From the NCBI GenBank assembly GCA_963921825.1, contig OY997592.1:62826336-62890335 (forward strand): 64,000 nucleotides of DNA, written 5' to 3'. The stretch comes from Erodium maritimum (taxonomy: Eukaryota; Streptophyta; Magnoliopsida; Geraniales; Geraniaceae). Shown here in pieces: positions 5,948 through 63,654 of the stretch (positions are counted from its first letter, which is position 1; every line of letters starts with the position of its first letter). The position numbers and the translations under genes were made by a program. Below the pieces are notes generated by a model, which was not told the origin of the DNA, did not search any database, and saw only the letters and a list, made by a program, of their open reading frames with translations.

Positions 5948-6408
5948 TGTAAGAACCGCCCCCGGTCAACACCGGTCGAACCGGTGAAATTTGGCAAAAG
6001 TTGACTTTCCGCCGGAAAAGTCAACTAATGACCTCGGGGGTCATTCAGGACCTTTTTGGGACCCAAAAATCTTAGCCGTCGTTACGGTTAGCTTAGTTGG
6101 GTCGTTTCCTTTCAAATATGTAATTTTGCGAAAAAGTCAAATCCAGGTCAAACGGGGTCGAATTAGGGGTCTTATCGAATTAATTTATTTTGGACTGAGA
6201 TATTTTGGGTAGAGGTGGACCCCACATGGAAACATGTACATGTGTCTTGGAGTAGAAGAAAAGAGGGGGAAAAGACCCTTTGGTCCTCACTTGTGGACAA
6301 AAGAGAGAGAGAGAGAGGGGCTAAAGGACGAAAAAGACATTTACCTTTTAGGTTAAATGCCTTTTTGGAGCAAAAATCAGCCACACTTCATCACCTTGGC
6401 CGAATTTC

Positions 6409-6450
<42 letters not shown>

Positions 6451-8949
6451 AAGCCTCCATTGCTTGAAGAAGAAGAAGGTGAAGAAAAGGAACTCCTTTG
6501 GTCGATTTTCAACCCCAACCTTCTCCAAATTTACTCCATTCTCATCCCCTCTTCATTCCTAAGGTGAGTAACCGTTAAAAACCCACTTTTGATGAACTTT
6601 GGGGTAGTGGGTTTGTTAGAAATTGCATGAACTAGGCTTGGGTTTTAGGGATTTGAGGTTCTTGTTCAAATAGATGAGTTGTGGAGAAAAGTGGAGATTG
6701 ATGATGAAATTTCATTGGGTTTTGTGGTTTTGATGAAACCCACCATGGGTCTTGAAAATTTTGGAGTTGTTGAGGCTAATTTTGAGGTTTTGGAACTTAA
6801 CAATGGAGTTGTGGAGAATCTAGAGCTTGTTAGGAACTTTTTGGGAGAAAGGAGGTATTTTTTTTTCGGCGACCGGAGGTTCGCCGGAGCTCCGGCCGGT
6901 CACCGGGGGGTATAACCGGCCATGATAGGAGGAAAGTCACGGGACCGGGACCGACCACACGGTGGCGGTCTGGTCCGGCCACCCACGGTCCACGTGTGTC
7001 CGTGGGGCCCACTTGGCCGGGGGACGGGTGTGTCGTGTTCGGGTGGTCTTGGGTGACCCCCGGATTGATAATTCACACCCGGAACGAATTATGGAAGTAA
7101 TTCGTGGAAATTCGGAAATTGTGACTAAAAACTTTAATTGCGGAATTAGAACGATCGGGCATCGGAAATTGATTCCGCCAAGTGCGCTGGAACACGTGAA
7201 CTTAATTAGGATTGATAAAAACGAAAACGAGAATTCTCGGGACCCCGAGGGACGTTTTCCCGATCCTGGGTAGATTCGCCAAACCGGGCGAAATGGACCA
7301 TTCCGGGCCCATTTTGACAAGTTGAGTAATTGGGGGTTAGTTTGGGTATTTCCCTTTTTAAAACACCCTTGAATTAGTATTAATTCTCGTATTACTTTGT
7401 GATCTTAGACGTTATTCCCGAGCACGGAGGAGGAGGCTACTAGGCGATTCGTGGTTCTTCGCGTTTGGATAGCGGTTGAGGTAGGGAAAAGTAGCGAATA
7501 CCGGTTTAATTGCGGAAAGTTACTAGTATGCATATAGGTTACGAATTCTCGATATAATATAGAATCACATGTAGTATGTGAATAACTAGTGTAGTCATAT
7601 AAATATGGAACCACTTGCGGCCATGTCGTGCCGTAGGTGTGGGAATTGCTATGATGTAGTTTCACATGTGGGTCCCTGGTTGGGCTCGTAGGATTGCGTG
7701 TTGGTTGTGTTTGTTGTGATTAGTAACTTGTAATGTTTGATATGTGGTATATCCGTTGTTAAATTAAGGATCATGATATGCTATGAGAACGTGGTGAATG
7801 TTAGTGCAAATTATCGTCTTGTGATATGATCGGGTGATTGGCAGACCGATGGGGTGTGTTCGGTAAGATTTGTTCGGTATGATATGCCGGTGTGATATAT
7901 TTGGTATGATATGTTTGAGGATGGTGTTCCGTTCCGATACCTATATCGAAGGATGGTTTCGATATAGATATCTAGACTGAGGCTTCCGGTATGATATCTA
8001 TACCGTGGAGGATTCCAGTATAGGATATCTAGGCCGAGGATTGGTTCCGGTGCGATACCTGTGATGTATGTGTGTATTCCGGTACAGGATATCTAGAGCC
8101 GAGGAGGGTGTTCCAGAACAATGTTTATACCGTAGAGGATTCCGGTATAGGATACCTAGGTCGATGTTGAGTGTTCTGGCATGGTATGTGTGATGTGATT
8201 TGTACCTCGTGCTACGGGAAGATACCCGACCGATGGAGGATTCTGGTCCGCTATGTTATGATTTGTACTCCGATGCTGTGTGTTCCGGGAAGATATCTAG
8301 GCCGATGTCGAGTTCGGTACGATATGATGAGTCGGGCTATGGAAGTCGGTGCATTGCTTTGGGACACCATAGGTGTCAGTGGTTGCTAAGGATATTACTC
8401 TATGTGTTGATCTGATGTTGATTTTCTATGGTTGTTTGTGCTTGCTATGTGATTCTCTGTGATTTGAATACATTTATGTCTGAGTGCCCGTTCAGTATCG
8501 AGTTTGATTTCCGGGTTGTTCCCGAGTGGGGTCAAGTGTGGCCTTCGAGTCACTTGCTTTATTGGCCTTTGTCACAGCTTACTAGTATGCCATAATCGAA
8601 CGGGTATCCGTGGTGATGAGCAATTGCTCCCTCCCTTTACTACTTTTTTCTACTGAGCGAAAGCTCACCCCTCTTTTCTACTGTCCTACATGTTTTGATC
8701 GCGATTTGAGTTAGAGGACGTCTCGGAGCGTGGGAGCTTAGCGAGAGTCCTAGTTTGGATGGTCTAGAGACGTATTGTGCTTTCGTATTAAACTTATTAT
8801 TACTTGGTTTTCGAGCTTTGACTCTTATTACCGGGATTATCAGTTCGGAACATTAATTTTGGAGTTTCCTTTGTTTTAAATTTGCATTAATATTACTTTA
8901 TTTTAGTTCACGTCTCGAGTCCGGTCAAAACCAGATTTGGGGCGTGACA
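5948..8949 (+). mobile_element. Long LTR family copy 1 (solo LTR, 3002 bp)
   Basis: Starts TGTAAGAACCGCCCCCGG and ends TTTGGGGCGTGACA. It is flanked by a perfect 5-bp duplication GATCA (5943-5947 and 8950-8954). It encodes nothing. No terminal direct repeat, primer site or pol sequence is seen inside, so it is read as a solo LTR. It carries an (AG)18 microsatellite at 6411-6446 and a donor-like site AAG|GTGAGT at 6563/6564. Imperfect 'gatatctataccg' type repeats lie at about 7860-8340, the TGAGC-GAAA-GCTCA hairpin at 8654-8667, and a 3' splice site spoiled by one extra T ('ctacatg') near 8687. Family by inference: a Ty3/gypsy-type element with long LTRs; the clade is not certain. Confidence 0.8.
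6411..6446. repeat. (AG)18 microsatellite inside LTR copy 1
   Basis: Uninterrupted AG dinucleotide run in the GA-rich leader shared by the other copies. In copies 2, 3 and 5 the same place has shorter GAGA stretches. Confidence 0.95.
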
Positions 8950-14623: not shown

Positions 14624-14678
14624 GTATAAATCATAGTGAATATAGAGTCTAAGAGACTAAAATGGCAAAACCCTACTT

Positions 14679-16079
14679 TTGTCTCTCAGCCACCATTTCC
14701 AACATTCCCCTCTCATCTCTCTCCTTCTCATCTCCTCTCTCACAACAACTGTAGCCACCATGCCTCGCTCGGCCCGATCTTCTTCACGGGACGAACCACT
14801 CTCATGGATCCCAAATCCCCTCTCTGAGATCGATATTAATCTCCCTCCGCCAAACCCTGGCCCTCCAGCGGCGGTATTGCCCAACCCCCAAAACCAACCG
14901 TCAAGAGTGGAGGCGGCGGTGGCCCTAGCCACTCACTCCCGAGACCTCGCACCGGCCTGGTCGGCGTTGTGCCTCCCACATGTAGAGTCAGGGTCGTCTC
15001 TATCGCGGGCGGGGACACCATATCCGAACCCCCATCACTCATTACTTGACACGCCACCCCCAACGCCGACCCGATCAGTCATCCTGGCCCTTTCGGGAGT
15101 TCATGCACCACCATCGCCTCACCCAGCGGCGGCCCGATCATGTATACTGGCCCCTCCGGCCGTCCATGCATCTTCTTTCTCTAGAACCCCACTTCCGGAT
15201 TGGGAGGACGAGGACGACGAGCTAGAAATCCCGATCGAGGCGGTTCTGGAAGCGGCTGATGGCCGGTACCAGTTCTCCTTGGCAGGGATTGTTGCGGGTT
15301 TAACACCTCGCAACTTGATGACAATTTGTGGGATTATGCTCTGGCATTATAAGACGGCCGGAATGGCGGTGGAATGCCCTAGCAAGGAAGTGATGGCCTT
15401 CAATTTCCCGTCTCGGGCATCAAAGGAGGCGATCCGACACAGAGGACCCTGGAGCTTCAGAGGGTACCCGCTCCTACTAGTCCCTCTCCAACCATGCATG
15501 CAACCGAGTCAGATACAACTTAGCACTATGGAGATTAGTGCTCAGGTATCAAATATATCGGGAGACGCTCGGAATGCACAAATCAGAGCCATCCTACCAG
15601 CCAAACTCGTCTTTGAGGTAATTTCGACCCCTATCCCAAAAATCCGTTTATCTGATGATTATTTATGGATCCGTGTGGGGATTGATGTGGATAACCCCCT
15701 CCGGAGGAAAATCAAACTTCGGTTTTCGGGGGCACTGGAATCCTCAATGGTCGAGGTGCAATGCGAACACCTCCCATGCTTTTGTGTTAAATGTGGCAGG
15801 TTGACACACCGAATTGAGTCATGCACTGCTTGGCTTCCATGGGTGGGTCGGAAAGATGTGAGATATGATGAGTCTATCCGAGTCCCGATGGGATTGAATG
15901 TTGATAGACTCCTCAAAAACGAGTGGAGGAAACTCTTTCCCCCATGTGAGTCCTCTGTCGATGACCTCCTTACATCCCTATCCTTGGATCCCATTCGGGA
16001 CTTTGTTGGAGGACGGGGCTCAGGACCATCTCGGGCACCTAACCATCCACCCCCGGGGTTTTCCAAATTTGGAAGGTAA
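14679..16079 (+). pseudogene. LINE ORF1 protein (DUF4283, CCHC knuckle), best-preserved copy
   Basis: 466 residues without a stop. The N-terminal 150 residues are Pro/Ser-rich. An acidic link 'DWEDEDDELEIP' leads to DUF4283 at about 185-340, with 'YQFSLAGIVAGL' and 'HRGPWSFRGYPLLL'. The knuckle CVKCGRLTHRIESC lies at about 371-384 (C-x2-C-x4-H-x4-C, all ligands present). Start choice: the ATG at 14679 opens the frame, but ATG 14760 has the better context (gccacc before it) and may be the real start. The frame ends at 16079. A second frame (about 16050-16500) carries the expected basic then acidic C-terminus ('KQKGKAKTG', 'DEEDGDSDQDTD'), so a one-step frameshift near 16050 probably shortened the protein. 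Expected role: RNA binding in the LINE particle. Confidence 0.75.
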
Positions 16080-16987: not shown

Positions 16988-17257
16988 TCAAGATGGTGGT
17001 AATGAACCCAAGTTGAGTTTGTCAACTAAATGTTTGAACTTTCCTGGGATTAAAGACTTGGTGAAGATAACTGCAGTCTGATCGCTAGAGGAGACAGATC
17101 GGAGAGCGAGGGTGCCCTGACTGAGATGTTGTCTGACAAAGTGACAATCGATCTCGATATGCTTGGTGCGTTTATGGAAGACATCATTATGAGCAATCTG
17201 AATAGCACTTTGACTGTCACAATGAATGGTAGTGGCTGACTTGTGAACAACACCCAT
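16988..17257 (-). pseudogene. Copia pol C-terminus (RNase H end) in the shifted frame
   Basis: 90 residues containing the end of copia RNase H: 'IHCDSQSAIQIAHN', 'RTKHIEIDCHFVRQ' and a short tail ending just before the polypurine tract. It belongs to the pol protein of 17050-20211, but an indel near 17360 moved it into another frame, so the two ORFs overlap. Confidence 0.85.
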
Positions 17258-20211
17258 GTCATGTAGTAACCAACGAAGCCATATGAGTTCGGAAGTAGTA
17301 TCAGCAAGGGCTCGATACTCAGCTTCCGTGCTAGAGCGGGCAATGGTTGTTTGTTTCTTCTCCAGGAAATCAGAGAGTTACCAAGAAAGAAACAGTAACA
17401 TGTGGTAGATCGTCGGTCTGTGGGATCGCCTGCCCAATCTGCATCTGAATAGGCCTGTAGGACTAAAGGTGAACCATAAGAGAAATGTAGTCCTTGTGTT
17501 AAGGTGCCTCGAACATAGCGCAAGATCCGAAGAACGGCCTCATAGTGAGTAGTGCGAGGTGCGCACATGAACTGACTGACGATGTGGACAGCATATGCAA
17601 TGTCAGGCCTAGTAACAGTGAGGTATACCAGCCCTCCAACTAATCGGCGATATAAAGTGGGATCCTCGAGAGCTTGACCATTTGATGGAAGATACTTGAC
17701 TTTCGCTTCAATAGGAGTGGAAGCGATCTTGCTATCGGTTAGTCCCCCCTTGGAGATGAGCTCGGCTGCATACTTGGCTTGGGACAAATGATAACCAGAG
17801 GACAGAGAGGAAATCTCCAAACCAAGAAAGTATGAGAGATGACCCAAATCCTTCATCTCGAACTGGTCGCTTAGATGACGCTTAAGATCCACAATGCCGA
17901 TAGCATCATCACCAGTAATGATCATATCATCCACATACAGAAGTAAGAGAGTATGACCCCGAGAGGTTCGACGAACAAACAGGGAGTTGTCGTGCGGACT
18001 GGAGACGAAACCAAAGACTGCCATCGCACTACTGAACTTGGAGTACCACGCCCGCGGAGCCTGCTTGAGTCCATAAATGGATTTGCGCAAACGGAAAACC
18101 ATGTGGGGGGGATGCTCATAGCCGGGCGGGGGCTTCATATAAACCTCCTCTGTAAGATCGCCATTGAGAAAAGCATTCTTCACGTCCATTTGAAAAACGT
18201 CCCACTGTCGACCAGCAGCAACAACAAGAATGGTGCGAACAAAAGTGAGTCTCGCAACAGGAGCAAATGTTTCCTCATAATCAACCCCATGTTCCTGGGT
18301 AAATCCACGAGCCACAATACGTGCCTTGTAGCGCTCGATAGAACCATCTGCCTTGGTCTTCACCTTGTATACCCATCTAGAACCGACCACATGTTCGTCC
18401 TGAGGTAAAGGGACCAGATCCCATGTATGAGTCTTCACCATGGCCTGTAGTTCCTCAGTCATTGCTTTCTGCCACAGGGGGTTAGTGCAAGCCTCCCGAT
18501 AGGTGTGAGGCTCATATACAGAGGACACTATGGAAGCGACACGAGAAGGTAGGGTTACCTCAAAGTCCTGGAGGTGAGATGGGAGTTGCCGATGACGTTG
18601 TGGTCGAGTCGGTAGCACATGATCCTCTAGCACAGGATTCTCTGGCGGAACATGGTCCACGGTAGGAGGCAGAGATGTCGGAGCACCTACATGAGTTAGC
18701 TCAATGGGAGAACCCTCATCATCATCAGAAAACAGATCAATATCAGGATTAGAAAAGAAAGGAGTAGACTCGGGAATGTGAAAAGAAGACATGGAAGAAA
18801 ACATCTTATGTTCCCAGAATGTGACATGGCGAGAAATACGGAGACGTTTGGAAACCGGGTCCCAACATCTGTACCCTTTGTGTTCGATCCCATACCCAAT
18901 AAAGCAACAAAGACGAGAACGAGGTTCAAGTTTAGTACGTTCATAAGGTTGTAGATGAACAAAACAGACACACCCAAAGACACGAAGAAGATCATAAACC
19001 GGAGGACGACCATACAAATACTCGTAAGGTGTTTTGTTACCTATGACTGGGGATGGAACCCTGTTGATGGTGTAGACGGGTGTGAGGGAAGCCTCCCCCC
19101 AAAAACGTTCAGGACAGGCAGCTGCAATGGTGAGAGCACGGACCGTATTAAGAATATGACGATGTTTGCGTTCTGCTCGACCATTTTGTTGCGATGTACC
19201 ACGACAGGAGCGCTGAACGATAGTACCGGTGGAAGCAAGTTGTGCAAGGAAGGATGACTCTTTAAGTTCCATGTCGTTATCCATACGCAGTGTTTTGATA
19301 ACTTTAGAGAATTGTGTGTGAACCATGGCAGAAAACTCAGAATAAATTTTGTTGAAGTCAGATTTATTATGCATGAGATAAATCCAAGTAAAACGAGTAT
19401 GATCATCAACAAATATGACAAACCACCGAGACCCCCCCATGGTCGGAACAGGTGCCGCTCCCCACAAGTCAGAATGAACAAGATCAAAAGGTGCAGAGGA
19501 AGTAGTATTATTAAGGGAAAAAGGCAGTTTATGATGTTTAGCAAGCTGACAAGACACACAATCACCAAAGTTATGCGAAACTGACCCCAACAAACCACTA
19601 GAAATAAGACTACGCAAACGAGAGGAAGAGGGATGACCTAGGCGAGAGTGCCAGAGATCGGCAGAGACGACAACGCCACAAGTAGACGAGGATGATGATG
19701 ATGGTGAGGGAACTACCGGTGAGGTGAGTTCGAACAAGCGACCAACTTTACGTCCTGTCCCATGGATTTGTCCCGTCAGTAGATCCTGCACAAGAACAGA
19801 AGAAGTACGACCAGAAAAGTTAACGTCAAAACCCAAATCACACAATTGACCAACCGATACAAGGTTCAGTGACAAATCTGGGACAAGCAAGGTGTTCGGC
19901 AATGATAGCTGGTCTGTGGTTGCGGTACCACAGTGTGTGGCCTGCGGGCTCATATGATTGAAACAAGCAGAATTGAGATACCACGTGGATGTGCTACCTG
20001 GTGTAGTAGTGGATGAGCTACCTGACGAGGCAGCGTGAGCTGAGAGGAATGCTCGTATGTCACCCAAGAGAGCCGTCATGTTAGGAGATTTGGACGACAC
20101 AACAGGTGTAGTAGCAACAGTGGATGAGCTACCTGACGAGGCGGTGTGAGCTGATAGGAGCGCTCGTATGTCACCCAAGAGAGCAGTCATGTCAGGAGAT
20201 TTGATAGACAC
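17050..20211 (-). pseudogene. Copia pol polyprotein (protease, integrase, reverse transcriptase, RNase H)
   Basis: 1053 residues open. A duplicated linker ('SPDMTALLGDIRA' and 'SPNMTALLGDIRA', about residues 4-70) is followed by the protease site. That site reads WYLNSACFNHM where active relatives have WxxDSxxxxHM, so the catalytic Asp is Asn. The pre-integrase has 'LWHSRLGHPSSSRL'. The integrase has 'DLVHSDLWG', then 'TLRMDND', then 'QQNGRAERKHRH'. RVT_2 follows with 'ARIVARGFTQEHGVDYEETF' and the YVDDM catalytic motif. Then comes RNase H 'YSDADWAGD'. The last part is out of frame from about 17360. Lost gag, a dead protease residue and the frameshift together make it non-functional by itself. 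Confidence 0.92.
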
Positions 20212-20928
20212 AGCAGGTGTAGCAGCAACAGTGACATTGGGCCTGTTGGAAGACCGATCATCCCCACGGGAGCCACGCCCCCCCTAAAGTGTTGAGAGGG
20301 CCTGGAGTTACCCCATCGAGGGTTGTTTGAGGCAAGAACGTGACGAGCATGAGTTCTGCATTATGTTAAGACATGTCCAGATCTGTTGCAGAACGTACAG
20401 TGGGGCTTGATGACAAAATGTTCTATTAGGAATACTTGAAAAGAAACACTGAAATAAATGATTAGTTTTTTTTTTTGGAAAACAGAGGTCAGCGCGCGTG
20501 TGGGCACGCGGTCAGAGGTCCGGGCCCGTGGGCGCAGACGAAGGCGTCAAGCGCGTGGGCACGGGCGAAGGAGCTGGGTGCGTGTGCTACACGCGTCGTC
20601 TTCGTTACGTCTTCTGCGTTGTGCAGGTTCGATGGCGTGCTGGCGGCGGAGGCGTCTGCGTTGCTCCAGCGGCGTCGGTCAAGACCGAGATCTTCTCGCC
20701 GGCGTGGTGTGGCAGGAGCACGGAAGGATGGTGACGCGGTGTGGTCGGCCGAGATCGTCTCGCTGAGGAGCTCGTCGGCATGGTGTGGTCGACCGGAGCA
20801 GGAGCAAGCAGGCTGGAGCAAGCGGCTGGAGCAGGAGCAACGTTCAACGAAGGTGAACGGTGGCGTTGCGACGGCGGTGGCGCGACGTAGGCGGCGGCTG
20901 AAGCGGAAGCGAGATTTAGAGCGATAGA
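20212..20928 (-). other. Copia leader with gag remnant
   Basis: Between the primer site and pol there are about 700 bp. The right part is a GC-rich leader without clear coding sense. The left part (20370-20420, minus) encodes 'CTFCNRSGH' and, after an in-frame TAA, a Cys: a broken C-x2-C-x4-H-x4-C knuckle from gag. A T10-11 run lies at about 20467. Most of gag has been deleted. Confidence 0.7.
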
Positions 20929-24130: not shown

Positions 24131-24364
24131 CAAAGGAGAATTTGGGAAGAAGAGAGAAGAAAAAGAACCTAACATAAATATATTTAATTTCATTAATTAA
24201 TTTTTTATGCATCGTATGCATAAATTATAATGAAATTGTACCTTTTTAATAAAACAAAAAATCGTATGCATTTTTATAATGTTTTTATCGTCCCCTTACA
24301 TTCTTTTTGCTTTGTTAACCATTTATTGTATTGTTTATTGACGATTTGAAAATTCAAACAATTT
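24131..24364. other. AT-rich spacer
   Basis: Short AT-rich sequence between two retroposons; nothing supported. Confidence 0.5.
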
Positions 24365-25224
24365 TACATGTATTGCACACAAGCTGGAAGGGGTTGTGTG
24401 CTCACAAGCTTAAAGGATGTATGGGTTTTAAGGTTCTCCAAGATTTCAATTTGGCTTTATTGGGGAAACAAGGGTGGAGACTAATGTGTAACCCGGGAAG
24501 TTTAGTAGCGAGGATTATGAAGGCCAATTATTATCCTATGTCAGATTTTATTGGTGCAGTGAAGAGGCCAAATTCTAGTCCGATTTGGAATAGTGTTTTG
24601 GAAGCTCAGGGGATTGTGAGAGGAGGTATTCGCAAGAGAATTGGGCCGGGGCGGGATACGAGAATCTTAGGGGTACCTTGGCTGCTGACCGATTCGGGTT
24701 TTGTGGAGGCTGAACCTCCTAGGATTGAGCATTGGACTGTTGATGATTTGTTCAGGTCGGGCTCGAGAGCTTGGAACGAGGTGTTGATTCGTGAACGCTT
24801 TGAGGCTCGGGACGCTGAAGCTATTATGAGAATCATGCTGAATTCTAGTATGAGAGTTGATGATTGGTATTGGAAGGGATCTAGGAGCGGCCTTTATAGT
24901 GTCAGGGAGGTGTACCGGGAGCTGCAGGTCCAGGAGGGTAGATGGAGTACATTGGACCAGGATGAGTTTTGGAAACAGCTGTGGCGTTTAAAGGTACCTC
25001 TAAAAATATGTCACTTTTTTTATGGAGGGGTGTCGGGATTTCTGCCAACAAATGATAATTTGGTCACCAGAAGGGTTAATGTTAGTTTGGATTGTGTGGT
25101 GTGTGGAGAGGTAGAAACAGTGGATCATGTAATGGTCGGCTGTCCGGTGGCGAAGGGGGTGTGGAGCAGGGTGATGGGGGTCCCCTCGGTTGGTGTTACT
25201 GGCTTTCGTGATTGGTTGGAGTAA
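24331..25224 (+). pseudogene. LINE ORF2 C-terminal part (RT end and zf-RVT)
   Basis: 297 residues open, the first 15 or so being non-LINE sequence before the truncation point. 'FNLALLGKQGWRLM', 'PIWNSVLEAQGIV' and 'WTVDDLF' are typical of plant LINE ORF2 after the RT. Residues about 225-285 form zf-RVT with 'FWKQLWRLKVPLKICHF', CVVC, 'DHVMVGC' and 'GVWSRV'. Ends at a TAA; RNase H follows in pieces. Closely related in sequence to the LINE at 13.3 kb. Confidence 0.8.
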
Positions 25225-25726: not shown

Positions 25727-26450
25727 TGTCACGCCCCAATTTCAGTAAACCGAACTCGGAACGCGAACATTTAAAATGATAAAACAATTGAAACCTGTTT
25801 TGAATAACCACTTTAAAATCTCCATTTAGTTAATCAAAATAATAATTACAACTTAAAATACGTCCCAACAAGTGGACAAAAGTATGGTATCCGTCGCTAG
25901 ACTCAAAATAAACCCAGAATCCCGCTCCCAGCTCTTCAAGCTTCATAAGCTCACCTAGTCCAACCTGCGACCGGTACCTGTAGGAAAAGCAGCTAAGGGT
26001 GAGCGTTCGCTCACCACCACGGATAACAGACTGACTATGGCATAATTAGCAGACAATGCCGGTAACACCAACAACCAACTCAACACCGGGGATCTCCATC
26101 CCCAAACTCAAGTAACCCGACCGACACCCACACACTGATACTTTCCTCAGCCGACTCAACACTCGGACATGTAAAGTAGACCCGACACAACGATTGACGA
26201 CCTCCTCCAAAGACACGACAGACCACCACGCAACACCCAAGATCACAAAGGATCGCACACCAAACAAGATCACAAAGGATCGCACTCCTGTCAGCTGCTC
26301 AGTGCCGGTTGCTAACCGGCTGGGCTCGAGCCTGCCCCACGCGCTTTGCCGATCCCTGTCAGGCTCTAGGCGGTCGACCTGTTGGCGATATATACAACAC
26401 TGCTTTTCCGATAGCTAGTCGGAAGGGGAGCTGCCCTCTCATCGCCTACA

Positions 26451-26592
26451 AATGCTCACAACCTACCGAGACTCGAACACGGATCAGGCTAGCCAAAGAA
26501 TGCTCGCAACTTCCCGAGACTCGAACTCGGTCAAGCCAACCAAAGAATGCTCGCAACCTCCCGAGACTCGAACTCGGTCAGGCCAGCCAAAT
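26451..26592 (-). repeat. 48-bp tandem repeat, three units, in LTR copy 4
   Basis: Three units of 47-48 bp around the core 'cccgagactcgaactcgg'. Partly alignable with the 48-bp units of copy 3 at 44109-44348 ('cggatcaggct' shared). Confidence 0.85.
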
Positions 26593-26700
26593 TCCACACC
26601 ACTTCCCGACACACAGTCGAGTTACTAACCTCGGGCAAACACAATCACAATCACAAGCAAAGTTCAACAAACAGCAACAACACAGGTTCAACACTCCACA

Positions 26701-27105
26701 AGCACTCATGGCCACCCAAGACACCAACAGTAAAACACGGACTCAACAACCCCACGGGCACTCACGGCCTCCCAAGACACACCAACCATAACTCACGGGC
26801 TCAACAACCCCACGGGCACTCACGGCCTCCCAAGACACACCAACCATAACTCACGGGCTCAATAACCCCACGACACTCACGGCCTCCCAAGACACACCAA
26901 CCATAACTCACGGGCTCAACAACCCCACGGGCACTCCTGGCCACCCAAGACACACCAACAGTAACTCACGGGCTCAACAACCCAACGGGCACTCATGGCC
27001 ACCCAAGACACACCAACAGTAACTCACGGGCTCAACAACCCCACGGCACTCACGGCCACCCAAGACACACCAACAGTAAAGACACGGGTTCAATCAACCC
27101 CACGG
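26701..27105 (-). repeat. ~58-bp tandem repeat, about seven units, in LTR copy 4
   Basis: Units share 'ctcacgggctcaacaacccc' and 'cccaagacacaccaac', with small differences between units. The array corresponds in position to the 37-bp array of copy 3 at 43819-43929. Confidence 0.9.
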
Positions 27106-29011
27106 GCATGGTCATATGCCTCCAGTACTCCTAATCTCGATAAGTTCGCAATCAACCTTCGGGCATGGTCATATGCCTCCGGTAATTCTAATAACGCTAA
27201 GTTCTCTAATCCTACGACACTACTAAGTATCACATGCATTTCCAATATTCGCTACGTTCCCGTATCATGCCTTTCTAATGTTCGATAAACCTACTTAACC
27301 CACGACACCCCGGTGTCACATGCAATTCTACTGTTAACTTTCCCTAGTCAGGGCCGAGATCCGGCTACTTTTCCCTACCTCGTGCGTGTTCTCCAAAAGC
27401 CAACCAACAAGCTCTGGCGTGATCTCAGTCACTCGCCTAGCTTTCATTTCCCTCGGTCTGCAGCACGATCTAATAAGAACACGATTTTTAAATACTTATA
27501 AGCTCGCAGACATAAACTGGAATTCAGTAAACTCGACGCCCAAAAGTAACCCTGACAATTTCGATCACTCCCAAACTTCCCAATTACTCGACATTGTCGA
27601 TAAAGGACCCGTAAAGGCCCGATTCGCCCAACATGGCGAATCTGCCCGGGTTTTGTAAATACCCTTCCGGGGCTTCGAAAATTCCCGTTTTCGTTTCTAC
27701 GGTCTTAGAATAATTCAAGGGTTCCTAGGCACTCGACGGAATCGAATTACGACTTCCGAGTCAATTAATTAACGTTTAAAGTTTCTAAACCCGATAATTA
27801 CAACTTTCGCAATTTAATTCCAAATTTCGATTCGGTTGTGGATAAATGATTCGGGGAACGTTCTAAATCACCCGAACACGAAAACCCGATACCCGAGCAT
27901 GTGGGCCCCACACGGCCACAATAGGAAAATTTCCTTTTCGCCCCAAAACGTTCCTAACGAACCCCAAACCTCAATACAACCCTAAACTAATAGTTTTAAA
28001 CCAAAACCTAATTTTAGAATTTGACAAAACGAAGATCGGTTTGGTGCTTACCGTAGAGGAAGACAATGTGTGTTTGATTCTCCTAACTTTGAGACGATCC
28101 AAGGGTTGGATGGAAGGGAAACGTCACAAATCCTCAAGAACACCTCTCTTTTTCTCTCTTCTCCTTCTCTCTCTAAAACTCTCTTCTTTTCTAAAACTAA
28201 CTCCTTTTCTTCTCTTTTTTTGAAATGAATGTGTAAGTCATCTCTTTTCCCTTTTGTTTTATTTAAAAAAAAACAACTAACACTTTAAAAAGTAAACTAA
28301 CCATCAAGTAGTCTCCTCTTGTCTTGTCCAACAAACCTAACACCACCACATTGGTGACATGTGGCAAGTGGGTCCCATCCCTTTTTGGAAAATATCTCCT
28401 AGATATTTTTCAATCAGGTTCGCGAAATTCGGACGTTTCGGGCCCCGAACGGGCACTTTTTCCAAGAAATTACGAAACTTCACGGGCTACAAGGAAACGG
28501 CTCAACTAAGACCGCTGCGACGATGGCTAAGCTTTTTGGATCCAAAACGGTCCTCGAATGGACCAAAACGTCGCTCGGTTGACTTTTCCAGCGAAAAGTC
28601 AACATTTCCCAAAACAATCAGAAAGTTGCCCTGAGTCCCCCGGAACTCACTTTGGTCGATATCGGGGTCAACTTAAGTCCGGTATGACCCTCGGGGTCAT
28701 TTTAGGTTCAATTAAGTGTCCGTCTTAAATTTTTTAAATTTTCCTGTTTTTCGCAGATTTGACTGGCGTTGACCGGGAGTGGTTATTACAGGGGGCCATT
28801 GTTATGGACTGTAAGCAGGTTCTTTCTTGTTTGGTTAATGTAACTGTAGTCCATGTTAAGAGGACTGCAAACATGGTAGCTCATGAGCTAACTCGAAATG
28901 CCTGGGAGTGGGCATCTATGGTGTGAGATTATTCATTTTTGCCAGAACCCATTTCTGGGTTACTGGTTTCTGATTCTCATTAATAAATATCTTACTTTCG
29001 TCAAAAAAAAA

Positions 29012-32984: not shown

Positions 32985-35799
32985 TGTAAGAACCGCCCCC
33001 GGTCGATCCCGGTCGAACCGGAGGTTTTCAGCGAAAGTTGACTTTATACCGGAAAAGTCAGCCGATGACTCCGGGAGTCATTCGGGACCTTTCCTGGGCC
33101 CAAAAAGCTTAATCGTCGTTACGGTTAGCTTAATTGGGTCGTTTCCTTTCCGATGACTGTAATGTTGGGAAAAGTCAACCCGGGGCCTTTTATCGGTCAA
33201 ACGCAGTCCGATTAAAAGGTAAATCTATTTAATTAATTGTGCTGGAATTAATTGAGTAGTAGTGGTCCCCACATGGACATGTGTCCATTCTTGCTTGGAA
33301 GGGAAGAAATTGTGGTGTTTGGACCCTTTTACCCTTGATTGTTGAACTTGAGGAGTTAAGAGCAAAAGGGCATTTTGGAACGTTCACAATTTGGTTAAAG
33401 GCACAAAAATGAGAGCAAATCAGCTCATTGAGCATTGTTGGCTGAATTTTCAGAGAGAGAAAAAGGGAGAGAAAAGCTTGGAAGCTTGAGGAGGAAGAAA
33501 GGAGGAAAATGATTGATTTTGGGCTTGGTTTCTACTCAAATCTCTTCAAAAATAGTGGATTCTTCTTCTACACTCCATTTCCAAGGTAATCATCTAACTC
33601 TTTTCGTTTTTGGTGGATTGTGGTTCATGGATTTAAAGGGAAATGATGAACTTGGTTGGGGGTTTGAAGCTTTAATGGTGGATGAAGATTTTTGGAGAAG
33701 AAAATGAGTTAGATGATTGATTTTATTTGAGATTTGAGTAGTTTTGATGAAATCCCTTTGTGGGTATTGTTTTGCTGAAGCTTTGGGGTCTGTTTTGGAG
33801 TTTTGAGGATCCATCAATGGAGTTTTGATGTTGAAATTCGTAGAAAACGAGTTGGGGAAGAAGAAGAGAGTCTGCTCTGGTCTGGCACGAAACGGGACAT
33901 GGAGATGGCTTGATTCCGGCACGGAACACCGCCCGGAACGGCCCAGGTTCCGGCACGAAACGCGGCGCGGAACGGGCAGGCTCCGGCACGGAACACCGCA
34001 CGGACCGTGTCTGGTTCCGGGCCGGTACGCTGCGCGGACCGTGTCGGGTTCCGGGCCGGTACGCTGCGCGGACCGTGTCGGGTTCCGGGCCGGTACGCTG
34101 CGCGGACCGTGTCTGGTTCTGGGCCGGTACGCGGCGCGGAACGTGTCTGGTTCCGGGCCGGTCTGTGGCACGGACCGGGTCGTGTACCGGGCCGGTTCGG
34201 GACACGGGAAGGGTCGGATTTCGGGTCAGTGGGCCATCCAAGTTGGGCCTCATTTCGGCCAATTTTCCTTTCAGCCCATGTTTGGACTTTCAGGCTAGTT
34301 TAATTATCCCTCGTTAAGAACGTTTTTGAGCTGGTTTTGATTCGAGTTTTGTTTGTAATCCAAGACTTTGGACCCGAGCGTGACGGAGGAGGAGGCACTT
34401 GGACTTCGTGACAAGGAGGAGGAAGCTAGCCAGGTCGTCAGCAGCTAGGAGTTGAGAGTTGGTTACTTTTGAGGTAGGGAACGTAGCGAATACCGGTTGA
34501 ATTACGGAAAGTTACTAGTATACCTTTAAGATAATAATAATAACCGTAAAGGTCCTAGTTGCATATAGGATGTGATTCACTAGAATAGACGCTTTCAATT
34601 ACGATAATAAACGGAAGAGTCCTAGTTTGCATATAGGATGTGATTCACTAGATTAATCGCTTTCAATTCTTGGGAAATTGTCGTGTTGGTAGAATGACCA
34701 TGTCGAGCCTTAGGGTTGCGTGTTGATTGTGATGCCATGATCCTTGATTGAGATGCATGATGTGTGACTTAGTGTCGGTAAGATTGAGAATCATGTTATG
34801 ATATACTCGGTGTAGCATGTTGTGGCTATGTGTGGGCAAGTGTGTCGTGATTGATGTGACGTGAATCATTGGTTGTGATATGATCGGGTGAGTGATAGAC
34901 CGATGTGTTATGATTGTGGTGAGTGGGCACGGTTGATATACCGTGGTCGATTTATGGCATTGTGATGCGTGTTATTCTCTTGATGTGTGTTCCAAGAGGA
35001 GGTGTGTCCGGTATGATACCTACACCGAGAGAGTATGTCGGTGTAGGGTATCGAGGACGAGGATAGTGTGAACTTTACCCCGATGCTATGTGGTCCGGGA
35101 AGGCGTACGACCGAGGTATGTGCCGGTCCGTTATGCTTGAGGCCTCGAGTCTAGGTGACGGGAAGACATCCGACTGATTGTATTGCCGGTCAGGTATGTT
35201 ACCTCGAGTCTCCGTGACGTGAAGATGTCGGGACCGATGCTCTGTGTTCCGGTACGATGTAAATGGGATGGGCTGTGATAGCCGGTGAGGTTGGGAACGG
35301 TTGTACTAAGTTATGTGTTGTTCTGCTCTGTGTTCTGTGCGTGCTGGTTGGCTATGTGTGTAGGTTTATTTGTGATTGTGGTCTTGTGAGAGTGATTGAT
35401 TGTTGGTACTTGTCCCGTGGGCGTTATTGATAGTTATGCTTTGCTAGTATGCCCTAATTGGATGGTTACTCGTGGTGGCATAACCTTAACTACTTTTTCC
35501 ACTGAGCGAAAGCTCACCCCTTACCTTGTTGTGTTTCAGGTCTTTAGCGGGATTTGTACTAGCTGGATGCTCGATGCTTGGGAGCTAGCGAGGGTCCTAT
35601 GCTAGCTTGTCTAGAGACGTACTATTATTTTGAACCGAACCTTTATTTACTGTGTTTTATGAGCTGTTGACTCATTTTTGTCGGAATTATGGATTTCAGA
35701 GTATTACTTTTAAAACTTATAACCGTTTAAATTGATTTATTTTTTATTTCTTTAAGTTCACGTCTCGATTCCGGTCAAAACCGGATTTGGGGCGTGACA
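32985..35799 (+). mobile_element. Long LTR family copy 2 (solo LTR, 2815 bp)
   Basis: Starts TGTAAGAACCGCCCCCGG and ends GGATTTGGGGCGTGACA. Flanks are ACCTC (32980-32984) and GCCTC (35800-35804), four of five bases matching. Donor-like CCAAG|GTAATC at 33585/33586; acceptor GTTTCAG|G ending at 35539. The TGAGC-GAAA-GCTCA hairpin is at 35503-35516. A GC-rich tandem block with 'ccgggccggtacgctgcgcg' units lies at about 33890-34200. No coding sequence. Confidence 0.8.
33890..34200 (+). repeat. GC-rich tandem repeat in LTR copy 2
   Basis: About four close units of roughly 34-36 bp built on 'gaccgtgtc.ggttccggg' and 'ccggtacgctgcgcg', with more diverged units on both sides. It makes spurious open frames on both strands. 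Confidence 0.85.
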
Positions 35800-42019: not shown

Positions 42020-43818
42020 TTGTAATAACCACTTCTGGTCAACGTCAGTCAAACCTACGAAAAACAGGAAAATTTAAAATTTTTAAGACAGACCCTTAAC
42101 TTAACTTAAATTGACCCCGAGGGTCATGCCGGACTTAAGTTGACCCCGTTATCGACTAAAATGAGTTACGGGGGACTCAGGGAAACTTTCTGGTCAATTT
42201 GGGAAAGATTGTTTCTTCGCTGGAAAAGTCACCCGAGCGACGTTTTGGTCCATTCGAGGACCGTTTTGGACCCAAAAGGCTTAGCCGTCGTCGTAGCGGT
42301 CTTAGTTGGGCCGTTTCCTTGAAGCCCGTCCAGTTTAAAAATTTCTTGGGAAAAGTGCCCGTTCGGGGCCCGAAACGTCCGTTTTTCGCGAATCTGATTG
42401 GAAAATATCAACTAGATATTTTCCAAAAGGTGTGGGACCCACCTTGACACATGTCCTAAATGTGGTGGTGTTAGTTTTGGGGGGAAAATGGGTGGTTGTG
42501 GTGTGTTGGCCGAACATGGGTAAAAGGGGGGAGTTTTTGGAGTTAGTTGTTAGTTTTAATTAAATTAGAAAGAAGAAGAGAGGTTTTAGAGAGAGAAGAA
42601 GAAGGAGAAGAAGAGAGAAGAAAGGAAGTGGAGTTAGGGTTTGATTTTCAACCCTTGGATCGATTCGAAGCAAGGAGCAAATCTCTTCCCCTCGTCTTCC
42701 TCTCGAGTAAGCACTAACCCGTTTCTCGTTTCGTTTATTTTCTTGAAAGCTAGGGTTTAAGTTTTGAACTAATACTTAGGGTTGTGTAGAGTTTGGGAGG
42801 TGTTGGAGACGTTTTAGAGGTGTTTGGGGGTGTAAGGGCACGTTTTCCGGTGACCGGAGGCTCGGGAGGAGCTCCGGCCACCGTGGGTGGTGGCCGGCCG
42901 GACATGTGGTGGCTGGCCGGAGGTGGCAGCAGCCACCACTTGGTGGCCGAGCCCCTCCCTCAAACCCTAGGGCACGGCCAAGCCCTTTGGGTGGGGCCCA
43001 CGTGCTCGGTTGTTCGTGTTTTAATTACTCGGGTAGTTTAAAACGTTCCCCGGACCACTTTTTCCTAATCGAATCGAAATTTGGAATTAATTTGGAGAAG
43101 TTGTAATTAACGGGTTTTGGGAAACTTTAAACGTTAATTAATTGACTTAGAAGTCGGAATTCAATTCCGTCAAGTGCGTTGGGTTCCTTGAAATATTCTA
43201 AGACCGTAGAATCGAAAACGGGGGCTTTTGGAGCCCCGGAAGGCAATTAACCAAAACCGGGCAGATTCGCCATGACGGGCGAATCTGGCCCTTACGGGTC
43301 CTTTATCGGCAATATCGAGTAATTGGGAAGTTTGGGAGTGATCGGCATTGTCGGGGTTACGTTTGGGCGTTAAGTTTATTAATTTTCGGTTTATTCGTAC
43401 TAGTTTAAAAGTACTTTGAATTTGTGTTCTTTTAGATCGTGCTACGGACCGAGGCAAAGGGAAGCTCGGCGAGTGAGTGGATGTACTTCGGGTGTTGTTG
43501 GAGCGCTTTTGGATTTATCTACGAGGTAGGGAAAAGTAGCCGGATCTCGGCCCTGATTAGGGAAAGTTAATAGTAGAATTGCATGTGACACCGGGGTGTC
43601 GTGGGTTGAGTAGATTTATTTAATTATTAGAAAAGCATGATACGGGATTGTAGCGTTCAAGAGAAAAGCATGTGACACTTAGTAGTGTCGTAGGAACAGA
43701 GAACTTAGCGATAATTGAATTACTGGAGGCGTATGACCATGCCCAGAGGTTGTTTGTGAAACTAGTGATTTTAGGACCGTTGGAGGCATCGAGTATGCCG
43801 GAGGTTGTCGTGCGTTTT

Positions 43819-43929
43819 ATTTAATTGTTGAGTTTGGGTGGCCTTGAGAGCCCGTATTTAATTGTTGAGTTTGGGTGGCCTTGAGAGCCCGTATTTAATT
43901 GTTGAGTTTGGGTGGCCTTGAGAGCCCGT
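43819..43929 (+). repeat. 37-bp tandem repeat, three exact units, in LTR copy 3
   Basis: Unit around 'ttgttgagtttgggtggcct'; three units are essentially identical and diverged units continue to about 44060. Confidence 0.95.
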
Positions 43930-44108
43930 ATTTAATTGTTGAGTCGGGGTGGCCATGAGAGCCGTGTATTTAATTTGGTGTCTTGAGTGGCAGCGAGTGC
44001 CCGTGGGGTTGTTGAACCCGAGTCTTGACTGTTGAGGTGTCTTGAGTGGCCTTGAGTGCCTGTGTGATTGAACTTGCCTGTGATTGTGATTGTGGTTACC
44101 CGGGGTGG

Positions 44109-44348
44109 TGAGTTCTAAAGGTCGACAGCCTGATCCGACTTAGTGTCGATGAATTGCGAGTTCTAAAGGTCGACAGCCTGATCCGACTTAGTGTCGATGA
44201 ATTGCGAGTTTTAAAGGTCGACAGCCTGATCCGACTTAGTGTCGAGGAATTGCGAGTTTGAAAGGTCGACAGCCTGATCCGACTTAGTGTCGAGGAATTG
44301 CGAGTTTGAAAGGTCGACAGCCTGATCCGACTTCGTGTCGAGGAATTG
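44109..44348 (+). repeat. 48-bp tandem repeat, five units, in LTR copy 3
   Basis: Unit contains 'aaaggtcgacagcctgatcc' and 'gacttagtgtcga'; five near-identical units. Confidence 0.95.
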
Positions 44349-45092
44349 CGATAGGTCGAACCCTGACCTGATTGAGATTGGTTACTGAGCAGCTGGTGTG
44401 CGATCCTTTGTGATCTTGTTTGGTGTTGTGTCGTTTCGTTCGAGTCCTTGAGGAGGTCGTCGATAGTTGTGTCGGGTCTACACTATTTTTATCGAGTGTC
44501 GAGTCTGTTGAGAAAGGTGACGGGTTGTGGGTCAGTTGAGTACTTGAGTTGGGGACTGTAGTCCCGACGTTGGGTTTGGTTTTAGTGTTACTGGCTTTTT
44601 CTGCTAATTATGCCATAGTCAGTCTGTTATCCGTGGAGGTGAGCGAACGCTCACCCCTAGCTGCTTTTCCTACAGGTACTGATTACCGGACGGACTAGGT
44701 TAGCTCTTGAAGTTCATGGAGCTTGGAGCGGAGTCTGGTCTTTACTTTTGTTGAGTCTAGTGACGGATGTTGTACCTTGTCCACTTGTTGGGACGTTTTT
44801 GTATTGTAAATACTATTATTTTGAGAAGTAAATGGAAATGTCAAAGCTTTTATTGAAAACAGGTTTCAAGTGTTCATGTTTTTAAAAGTTCGCGTCCCGA
44901 GTTCGGTTCGCTGAAATTGGGGCGTGACAATGGTGGCGGCGGCTGGACCCTGGTTAGGGTAGAATGGACCCTGGCTAGGGTAGACGAGAGTTTTTTAGAA
45001 TGAAACTTGGAAATACATACTTGTGCTAAGAATAATATCACTTAATTATATTAATAGTATCCGATTTTTACGGTAACTAAAAAAATCATATG

Positions 45093-61043: not shown

Positions 61044-63654
61044 TGTAAGACCCGCTTCCGGTCGAACCGGCGACTCCGGAAGTCACTCGGGACTTTTCCG
61101 GAAACCAAACGAAGTAGTCATTATCACGGTTGGCTTCAGGGGAGAAAACCCTTTCGTTTGAGTATAATATTGAATAAAGTCAATTTTGGTCAAAACGAGA
61201 CTTTATATCGACTAAAGCTTCAATTTTAAAAGTGCTGGAATTTATTTTGGAAATTTAATTGACCTAGGTGGACACATGTCTCTTTGTGGTTGAAGGAGGG
61301 AAAAGTGAGTAGTCCTTGACCATTTTACCCTCCCAAAAGCTTCTACATGGGTTTCTAGCTCAAGGGCTTTTGGTCATTTACTACATCTAGGTATTATATT
61401 GGATTGGAGAAGCAATTTCAACTCATTTTTGTTGAGTGTAGCCGAAATTGAGAGGAGGAGCAAAGGAGAAGAGCTCCCATGGAAGCTTGAAGGAAAATCA
61501 AAGAAGAAGGAGCCATTTGGAGTCTTCCTCTAGCCTTCCACCCTCAAAATCACTAGCACCTTCTTCATCTCCACATCCTAGAGGTAATGAAACTCTCTAA
61601 TCCTCATTTCTCTTCATCTATTTTCTTGGGTTTTGGGTGAAAATTGCTAGATGATGTTGGGTTTGAGTAGAAATGATGGGAGATGGTGTTGATGAAGAGC
61701 TTGGTTAAGTTTTTGTTGAGAAATCAATAGTTGTTGGAGATTTTGAAGTGGGTTTGATTTGATGAATCATTGGAAACTTGTTTGTGTGTTGATTCCTGCC
61801 ATGGGTAGAGGAGTATTGAAGGATTTGGACTGTTTTGGGGGTTGGAAAGGGTAAATTTCTGGGTTTGATGGTGGTTTTTCGGAGTTTTGGAGCTGGAGGT
61901 TGAAGAAGGGCGAAACTGCCCTGGTGCGCCACGGATCCGTGACGGATCCCGTGACGGGCGACGTCACGGCTCCGTGAGGGAGTTCGTGACGGCACTCGTC
62001 ACGGCTCCGTGACGGTAACCGTGAGGGTTAACGTCACGGATCCGTGACCGACCAGGGTAAGAGTTTCTTGGGGGTTTTTCGAAGGTTTTGCATCTTGGTT
62101 TTGAGCTGAACTTTGGAAGGGTTTTGGGAGTCCTTCTTGATGTTTAAGTGGAGCCTAATTAGTGTTTCTTTGTGTCCAAGACTTTGGGGATCGAGATAGA
62201 GGAGCAAGGATCACGCCGGGACCCGAAGGAGGAGCGAAGTGGTGATCACCGGACTTCACCAAAGCGTTGAAGAGGAGGACCTTGAGGTAGGGGAAGCCTT
62301 AACCTCTCGTTTATGAAGCTTAGTATGCATGCTTGGTTTATAAAATTGGAAAAGGTCCTAGACATGCATATAGGATGCGAATAACTAGCATAATCGTCTT
62401 TCATTTTCTAATAACCGGAAGTGTCTAGTGGTGACCGATTAGGATGCCAATCACTAGTGTAATTCGCTTTCAATACTTGGGATATGATTGTCTGGTAGAG
62501 GAGCCTTGGCAAAGCCCTCGGATTAGTTGCGTGCTAGGATCGCATGCTTGGTTGTTGGTTGCTTAGTGGATAGGCTAAAGAGTCTAATGAAACTAGTGGA
62601 ATTGCATGCTTGAATGCTCTTTTGAAGACTTTATGATTAGTTGATTACACTCGTACTTGATCGTTGATTGGTATTCGAATGATTACTTGATTTACTTGAT
62701 TGTTTGTTTGGAGCATCGAGTATGACTGGTTGTGCCGAGCGGTGCAATCAGGTGATCGATGCCCCAGTGGTTCGAAACTGGTAAGTGAACGGTAAGTTGG
62801 GATTGTGTATTTGGTGTGCTATGGTTGTGTGATTCGTGTACTTTGTGTTGTGGTGAATTGGTGATGGTTGAGCTGTGTGTGGACTTGGATTGGTGGTTGT
62901 TGAGCTTGTATTACTTCCTATTTCGGTTGAGTGCGTTATTCAATTATTAACTACTTATCATTAAATTGCCCACGTGTGCGCTCCTATGGGAGTATGGCCC
63001 TGGGTTCCCGATGATCTAAAATCCCTTGGAGACGTTTCTGAGACTTCCGACGATATGTGCCCTGAAGGATGTTTCCGATAGTCTCAATGATATGCGTCTC
63101 CTCTGGATTGGAGGGAAAATCCGAGAGGACACATAAGATGTGGATCGGAGGGTGGTGACTTCATGTGCCACGGCATTGATTGGTCTATCTATTGTCTATG
63201 ATTGTTAAGAGCTATATGTTAACTTTACCAACGAGTTTTCTGTAATGTTATGAACTACCTTGTGAACTGTGTTGGTGAATTATGGATCTTGTGGGCATTG
63301 TCGTTGATTCTTTGAGTTTAAGGTTCATTATGTTATGCGTTTTCCCTACTGAGCGTGAGCTCACCCCTATGTTTTACTGTTGTGTCTACAGGCTTGGTTG
63401 AGGAGTAGAAGCTTGGGCGCTTCTCGGTGGGGGTACATGATAGAGACTTCGTACTTTACATTTTTATGTTTTGAACCAAATTGTGAAGGATTATTATTAC
63501 ACCCCTAGAGGGTTATTATGTTTTGAACTACATTTTGTGGATTCGAGTTGTTTATTGGAGTTTTCTAGAACTTGATTTAAATTGTTATCTCCTTTATTTA
63601 TATTTTACTAGTCATGCCTCGAGTCCGGGCAAGAACCGGATTTGGGGCGTGACA
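61044..63654 (+). mobile_element. Long LTR family copy 5 (solo LTR, 2611 bp)
   Basis: Starts TGTAAGACCCGCTTCCGG and ends GGATTTGGGGCGTGACA. Perfect 5-bp duplication CTAAC (61039-61043 and 63655-63659). Donor-like GAG|GTAATG at 61583/61584; acceptor CTACAG|G ending at 63391. The TGAGC-GTGA-GCTCA hairpin is at 63350-63363. A cluster of TGACG/CGTCA motifs lies at 61929-62050. No coding sequence. It lies about 0.6 kb downstream of the AAP stop codon. Confidence 0.87.
61929..62050 (+). repeat. Clustered TGACG/CGTCA inverted repeats in LTR copy 5
   Basis: At least seven TGACG or CGTCA words in about 120 bp, set in repeating 'tccgtgacgg' and 'cgtcacgg' units. Confidence 0.85.

Follow-up and report, generated by a model that had tools for sequence, protein, structure and literature searches.

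Two introns inside the long terminal repeat of a Ty3/gypsy family of Erodium maritimum, and genomic copies that point to their splicing

Can the long terminal repeat (LTR) of a plant retrotransposon carry introns of its own, and are its transcripts spliced? The question is raised by a 64,000-nt stretch of Erodium maritimum DNA (contig OY997592.1, positions 62,826,336 to 62,890,335; hereafter the window), which holds five related units, c1 to c5 (copies 1 to 5), and for which a preliminary description had proposed one repeat-rich intron lying wholly inside the LTR. The analysis of these units and of their relatives in the source genome (G000, 763 Mb) gave two introns instead of one, and genomic copies lacking an intron exactly at the predicted sites make it very probable that LTR transcripts of this family are partly spliced in vivo, the spliced RNA being reverse-transcribed and integrated.

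The units are 2.6-3.1 kb long. None contains an internal region, and they are therefore solo LTRs, here of Ty3/gypsy chromovirus-like elements. Their left ends read TGTAA(G/T)A(A/C)CC and their right ends GGGGCGTGACA, with TG..CA termini in all five, and the 5-bp target duplications are exact in four units and agree at four of five letters in c3. The LTRs form diverged families (c1, c3, c4/c2 and c5), for which first-look searches of the source genome with the left parts gave 5204 candidates for c3, 4388 for c4, 3081 for c5 and 5512 for c1; 40 candidates were scored per genome search, and the counts of intron-less places given below are lower bounds. Concerning the fuller copies, the primer-binding site TGGTATCAGAGC stands directly 3' of the LTR in six of the seven shown (one mismatch in the seventh), and a G-rich polypurine tract lies 5' of the LTR in all seven. 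The open frames of L153 run in the order gag, protease, reverse transcriptase, RNase H and then integrase, which is the Ty3/gypsy order; L131-L134 carry pieces of the same gene set, and the integrase of the fuller copies has an SH3_Tf2-1 domain. The label chromovirus-like is used since the match of the integrase C-terminus to the Chromo profile (E 0.14, 12.6 bits) falls under the cut-off of 25.1; the Tekay/Del clade is a candidate name for the lineage.

Splice sites are named here D1 and A2 (donor and acceptor of intron 1) and D2 and A3 (donor and acceptor of intron 2), with a slash at the exon boundary. The outer two had been described as a donor 540-739 nt from the left end of every copy and an acceptor 251-263 nt from the right end of four, and both were recovered: D1 lies 616, 739, 601, 686 and 540 nt from the left end in c1 to c5, and A3 is intact in c2, c3, c4 and c5 at the distance given. 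In copy 1 the acceptor is indeed spoiled, with CTACAT where the other units have AG, and the segment from D1 to A3, put at 1.8-2.1 kb, measures 1.81-2.12 kb. By an approximate plant matrix drawn up from general knowledge, D1 ranks 1, 2, 3, 13 and 3 (c1 to c5) among 200-300 GTs per unit, and A3 ranks 1, 1, 3 and 1 (c2, c3, c4, c5) among 160-209 AGs.

This segment is not one intron; it is two introns around a middle exon. The D2 word GAG/GTAGGG (GAGGTAGGG) stands mid-unit. The window has exactly five copies of it, one in each unit, against 0.46 expected, and none of 100 shuffles reached five. A2 (TTAG/A or CAAG/A) lies 72-109 nt upstream of D2 in all five units, and the single long intron was dropped once the exon bounded by A2 and D2 had been found. 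The layout is then exon 1, intron 1 (582-845 nt), exon 2 (72-109 nt), intron 2 (1066-1401 nt) and exon 3, exon 2 being T-poor (14-27% T) with 54-66% purine. Among words of at least eight letters common to the five units, a relative position spread of at most 0.07 is shown by the right terminus, GAGGTAGGG and GCTCACCC; GGAAAAGT, close to the left end, follows with 0.076, so that the cut-off decides the listing. Shuffled units gave no common 9-letter word and a mean of 0.95 common 8-letter words. Furthermore, TGAGCGNNNGCTCACCC at up to two mismatches has eight matches in the window against 0.17 expected: five are exact and precede the acceptors, two are the palindrome on the opposite strand and one lies elsewhere. 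The coordinates are collected in Table 1.

Table 1. Solo LTRs, their predicted exons and introns, and other open frames in the window
Feature	Position	Strand	Remark
Copy 1 (c1 family), solo LTR	5948..8949	+	3002 bp; target duplication GATCA
Copy 1 intron 1	6564..7408	+	AAG/GTGAGT .. GATCTTAG/A
Copy 1 exon 2	7409..7480	+	72 nt; ends GAG/GTAGGG
Copy 1 intron 2	7481..8691	+	acceptor spoiled (AT for AG)
Copy 2 (c4/c2 family), solo LTR	25727..28790	-	3064 bp; target duplication CCCCC
Copy 2 intron 1	27470..28051	-	
Copy 2 exon 2	27379..27469	-	91 nt
Copy 2 intron 2	25978..27378	-	
Copy 3 (c3 family), solo LTR	32985..35799	+	2815 bp; flanks ACCTC/GCCTC
Copy 3 intron 1	33586..34364	+	
Copy 3 exon 2	34365..34473	+	109 nt; purine-rich
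Copy 3 intron 2	34474..35539	+	
Copy 3 conserved block TGAGCGAAAGCTCACCC	35503..35519	+	before A3; holds CTCAC branch-point-like match
Copy 3 exon 3	35540..35799	+	reaches LTR end
Copy 4 (c4 family), solo LTR	42021..44929	+	2909 bp; target duplication ATGGT
Copy 4 intron 1	42707..43435	+	
Copy 4 exon 2	43436..43525	+	90 nt
Copy 4 intron 2	43526..44675	+	
Copy 5 (c5 family), solo LTR	61044..63654	+	2611 bp; target duplication CTAAC
Copy 5 intron 1	61584..62180	+	
Copy 5 exon 2	62181..62286	+	106 nt
Copy 5 intron 2	62287..63391	+	exact stretch absent in L189
Open frame, DUF4283 and zinc knuckle	14661-16079	+	
Open frame, Ty1/copia polyprotein	17050-20283	-	1077 residues; RVT_2, SH3_retrovirus, gag_pre-integrs
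Open frame, zf-RVT	24319-25224	+	
Open frame, C-terminal half of Aa_trans	59761-60414	+	amino acid transporter family; adjoins copy 5

Are these sites kept in other copies? The preliminary description had named lack of conservation in a larger family alignment as one of the findings that would refute it, and the sites proved conserved. Of 62 fetched c3-, c4- and c5-type loci, 49 kept both ends, and 13 were dropped as the right end was absent from the piece (L123-L130, L145, L147, L149, L174, L187); three of five c1-type loci were kept, L191 and L194 being dropped and L195 having a ragged right end. In the resulting alignment of 57 LTRs, composed of 52 further genomic LTRs and the five window units, D1 is GT in 55, A2 is AG in 53, D2 is GT in 56 and A3 is AG in 52 of the 56 rows with letters, which makes D2 the most conserved site, and the proposal that the splice signals persist in several diverged copies holds. 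It should be noted that these rows are not independent, many c4-type copies being 98-99% alike. The A3 defect of copy 1 is not shared by its three aligned relatives, in which AG is intact, and members of other families (L166, L185 and L186) have the same change from AG to AT. Two further proposals fared less well. Better conservation of the flanks stood in part: the exons do not surpass the introns throughout, exon 3 of the c3 family being more variable than its introns and exon 1 of the c5 family more variable than its intron 1. Nor are all tandem repeats inside the segment, since an (AG)18 tract (6411-6446, copy 1) sits upstream of the donor.

A block TGAGC-NNNN-GCTCACCCC was also seen in the last 60 nt of intron 2 in the c1, c3, c4 and c5 families, its middle being GAAA, GAAC, GTGA or GTAA in most copies. 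RNA pairing before A3 was considered as a structure and set aside, as the copies listed show no compensatory change.

Evidence that the sites have been used comes from copies without an intron. Joined exon 1-exon 2 queries against the source genome found, of 40 places scored for each family, 28 spanning the intron-1 junction for c5 and five each for c4, c3 and c1. Thirty-six of these loci were read (24 c5-type, 5 c4-type, 5 c3-type and 2 of the 5 c1-type), and the junction was exact and gap-free in every one. The donor after exon 2 is still GT in 16 of 17 c5-type and 3 of 3 c4-type copies of this kind. Five same-strand pairs lack intron 1 in both members (L223/L224, L225/L226, L227/L228, L231/L232 and L235/L241); they stand 6.7-11.6 kb apart, an LTR-pair-like arrangement known by spacing alone. 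Four of the pairs show 95.8-96.6% identity, unlike flanks included, and the end branches of the tree set them 0.005-0.016 changes per site apart.

Regarding intron 2, the c5-type solo LTR L189 (G000 C4:13850100-13853450; CCCTC on both flanks) lacks exactly this intron, the letters reading GACCTTGAG/GCTTAATTGAGG. When a 120-nt query over this junction was run against the genome (BLAST), L189 alone among the 40 places scored spanned it, and the other 39 matched one side, breaking at position 59 or 61. Intron-2-less places thus number 1 of 40 scored for c5 and 0 of 40 each for c3, c4 and c1. L150 was rejected as an intron-1-less copy (D1 carries a mutation, and the 674+102-nt loss lies off the splice sites), as was L243 as an intron-2-less c3 copy (the letters before the acceptor are intronic), and two further c3 places, matching from query position 49, were left out of the reading for intron-2 loss.

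Could such copies be ordinary DNA deletions, with the splice-like words serving at the DNA level, for instance as a palindrome TGAGC..GCTCA bound by a protein? Ordinary deletions do occur in these LTRs (L136, L150, L185), and the block before A3 is palindromic and conserved in sequence with no compensatory change in the copies listed. However, the ends of the large deletions in those three copies lie off the splice sites, and only 1-7 of 3.4-4.5 million breakpoint pairs would yield the identical product, a probability of about 1e-6 per deletion, while the same exact GT-AG junction recurs in 36 of 36 loci of four diverged families. Deletion is therefore a highly improbable source of these copies. 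The exactness of the intron-less copies, its low probability by chance and the off-site ends of the other deletions are why the LTR RNA is taken, with good confidence, to be spliced. Several points nevertheless weigh against this reading. The evidence for splicing consists of genomic DNA copies; D1 of c4 (CGA/GTAAGC, the one ranked 13) is weak by the approximate matrix; the splicing of intron 2 rests on the single locus L189, where MAFFT and pairwise alignment set the gap slightly off the splice sites, so that its exactness depends on the letters read and the BLAST break points.

If intron 1 is missing from so many copies, was it lost or gained? The absence is read here as a loss, that is, one old intron 1 which would have been lost repeatedly, because intron 1 of c1 is homologous to intron 1 of c3, c4, c2 and c5 (z 7.5-19.9); intron 1 of c3 is also homologous to that of c5. 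The alternative, an ancestral state without intron 1 and its gain in some lineages by an introner-like insertion, draws on the tree of 38 c5-type and outgroup LTRs (intron-bearing rows chosen for closeness to c5; L220 omitted owing to a duplication), in which L231/L232 and L219, all without intron 1, fall outside the c5 copies that have it. It also draws on between-family comparisons of intron 1 at chance level (c3-c4, c4-c5 and c5-c2, with c3-c2 weak), which count against a single old intron. Yet a gain would require every family to have received a homologous insertion at one and the same junction, the homologies just given speak against it, and the outgroup c3 copies carry intron 1, so that it is very unlikely. 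In the c5 tree the copies without intron 1 need three changes and a single clade is rejected (AU p 0.004); taken alone, its well-supported branches force one change of intron state, a further point against repeated loss. The c4-type tree (24 rows) needs two changes, and its bootstrap is unsettled.

L220 (G000:C5:31117220-31118050) carries a tandem duplication of about 245 bp, both copies of which lack intron 1. The duplicated unit begins with AAATTTGG, about 140 nt before D1, and runs through the exact end of exon 2. At this one locus, the duplication may mark the 5' end of the RNA or may stem from template switching at an intermediate of splicing.

Intron 2 is much harder to lose than intron 1; the contrast is one between lower bounds, with 40 places scored per search, which tempers it. 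How could such a contrast arise? In the proposed mechanism a promoter region would occupy the left part of each LTR, followed by the three exons with introns 1 and 2 between them. The RNA would start inside the LTR, some 140-200 nt upstream of D1, and the host spliceosome would splice part of it; splicing from D1 to A2 has DNA support from many exact copies in four families, and from D2 to A3 from one copy. Reverse transcription and integration of spliced RNA would leave intron-less LTR copies, and splicing would shorten a leader of about 2 kb full of start codons and so presumably help gag translation. RNA keeping intron 2 would be the preferred replication template, by which intron 2 would persist and intron 1 could be lost often with the spread of the element not stopped. 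Tentatively, GAG/GTAGGG would then act like a retroviral major splice donor inside the LTR, parting translated from replicated RNA, with packaging or reverse-transcription signals in intron 2 that sort the RNA between the two uses and intron 1 free to be lost; this analogy is possible rather than probable.

The main rival of the template reading, a serious one although it falls short of an even chance, is that intron 2 is rarely lost because its removal is slow or comes last, and not because RNA free of it is excluded from replication. The CTCAC branch-point-like match lies inside the conserved TGAGC-NNNN-GCTCA block, which could pair, and GTAGGG deviates at +4 and +6 from the donor consensus as generally remembered. 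On the other hand, D2 is the best kept site and A3 the top acceptor in three of four units, which suggests active use, and active use is still compatible with slow splicing. It is also conceivable, if doubtful, that each LTR, solo ones included, is a self-contained noncoding gene of three exons with a poly(A) site in exon 3. The R region would then exceed 2 kb and the spliced RNA would be short. In favour of this, exon 3 is T-rich (36-39% T) with AT-rich stretches 3' of the acceptor. However, the poly(A) site is putative and in a 5' LTR would have to be bypassed to reach gag.

The start codons bear on the leader that splicing would shorten. Introns 1 and 2 hold 184 of the 233 ATGs of the five units, and the 180 nt before D1 hold 3 against 18.4 expected by base composition. 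With dinucleotides kept, the expectation falls to 7.4, and GTA is equally scarce there, both of which speak against a leader cleared of start codons. Exon 2 has 2 ATGs against 8.1 expected by bases and 4.6 with dinucleotides kept, and the count in intron 1 is likewise below expectation. As the shortfall shrinks with dinucleotides kept and is seen in intron 1 too, the case for such a leader is modest. In the 360 nt before D1 of the five units, CpG stands at 0.28-0.29 of expectation, and other LTR segments are at about 0.94-1.61.

Elsewhere in the genome, three or four alike LTR matches are evenly spaced on one strand (about 8.4-9.4 kb), like an LTR inside an LTR inside an LTR, at G000 C4:36503103/36512520/36521937, C6:23798761/23807206/23815651 and C1:85668751-85694018. 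As for the other open frames of the window, those with DUF4283 and zinc knuckle and with zf-RVT are taken to be as in LINE-type elements. Related LTRs were also sought in IMG/VR: a first pattern scan gave two matches, both in GC-rich prokaryotic-looking DNA, and a second gave at least 126, of which the 40 lowest in GC were phage- or prokaryote-like and none plant-LTR-like.

Introns wholly within an LTR change the picture of transcript start, leader, R region and reverse transcription, and solo LTRs bring splice sites that neighbouring genes could use. Moreover, copies with and without intron 1 that are alike in other respects amount to a natural retrotransposition assay, and the contrast with intron 2 makes the replicated RNA form testable in a plant element. 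If the proposed sorting of RNA held, the genome would be a natural record of retro-processing over thousands of LTRs.

Which known systems come closest? Retroviruses have a major splice donor near the 5' end with the packaging signal behind it, and there, as proposed here, splicing in that region separates mRNA from genomic RNA; their acceptor lies far downstream, whereas here all donors and acceptors are within the LTR and the packaging signal is hypothetical.

Plant LTR retrotransposons are generally intron-free according to a 2025 review, which singles out Ogre and EVADE as exceptions (PMC12786077). No description of an intron inside a plant LTR was found in the literature searched, preprints and most subscription journals lying outside its scope; the wording 'intron in the LTR' exists for an engineered lentiviral vector (PMC5542766). 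Ogre, a Ty3/gypsy element of pea and Medicago, has a native intron spliced from a subset of transcripts (PMC6317226), and it resembles the present family as a plant Ty3/gypsy element with a native, partly spliced intron; the difference is that the two introns here lie inside the LTR and are noncoding. In BARE1 the unspliced RNA is the replication template and partial splicing separates the uses of the RNA (PMC3735527), as it does in EVADE (PMC12786077). Partial splicing with a proposed separation of RNA uses is common to both and the E. maritimum LTRs, although BARE1 and EVADE are Ty1/copia elements with an intron at the gag/pol boundary that yields a gag mRNA. DNA copies of the spliced BARE RNA could not be amplified by the authors of that study (PMC3735527), whereas genomic intron-less copies exist for the E. 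maritimum family. Finally, exact loss of the intron from an intron-marked Ty reporter reveals passage through spliced RNA (PMC12786077); there the intron was placed by the experimenters, whereas those of the E. maritimum LTRs are native.
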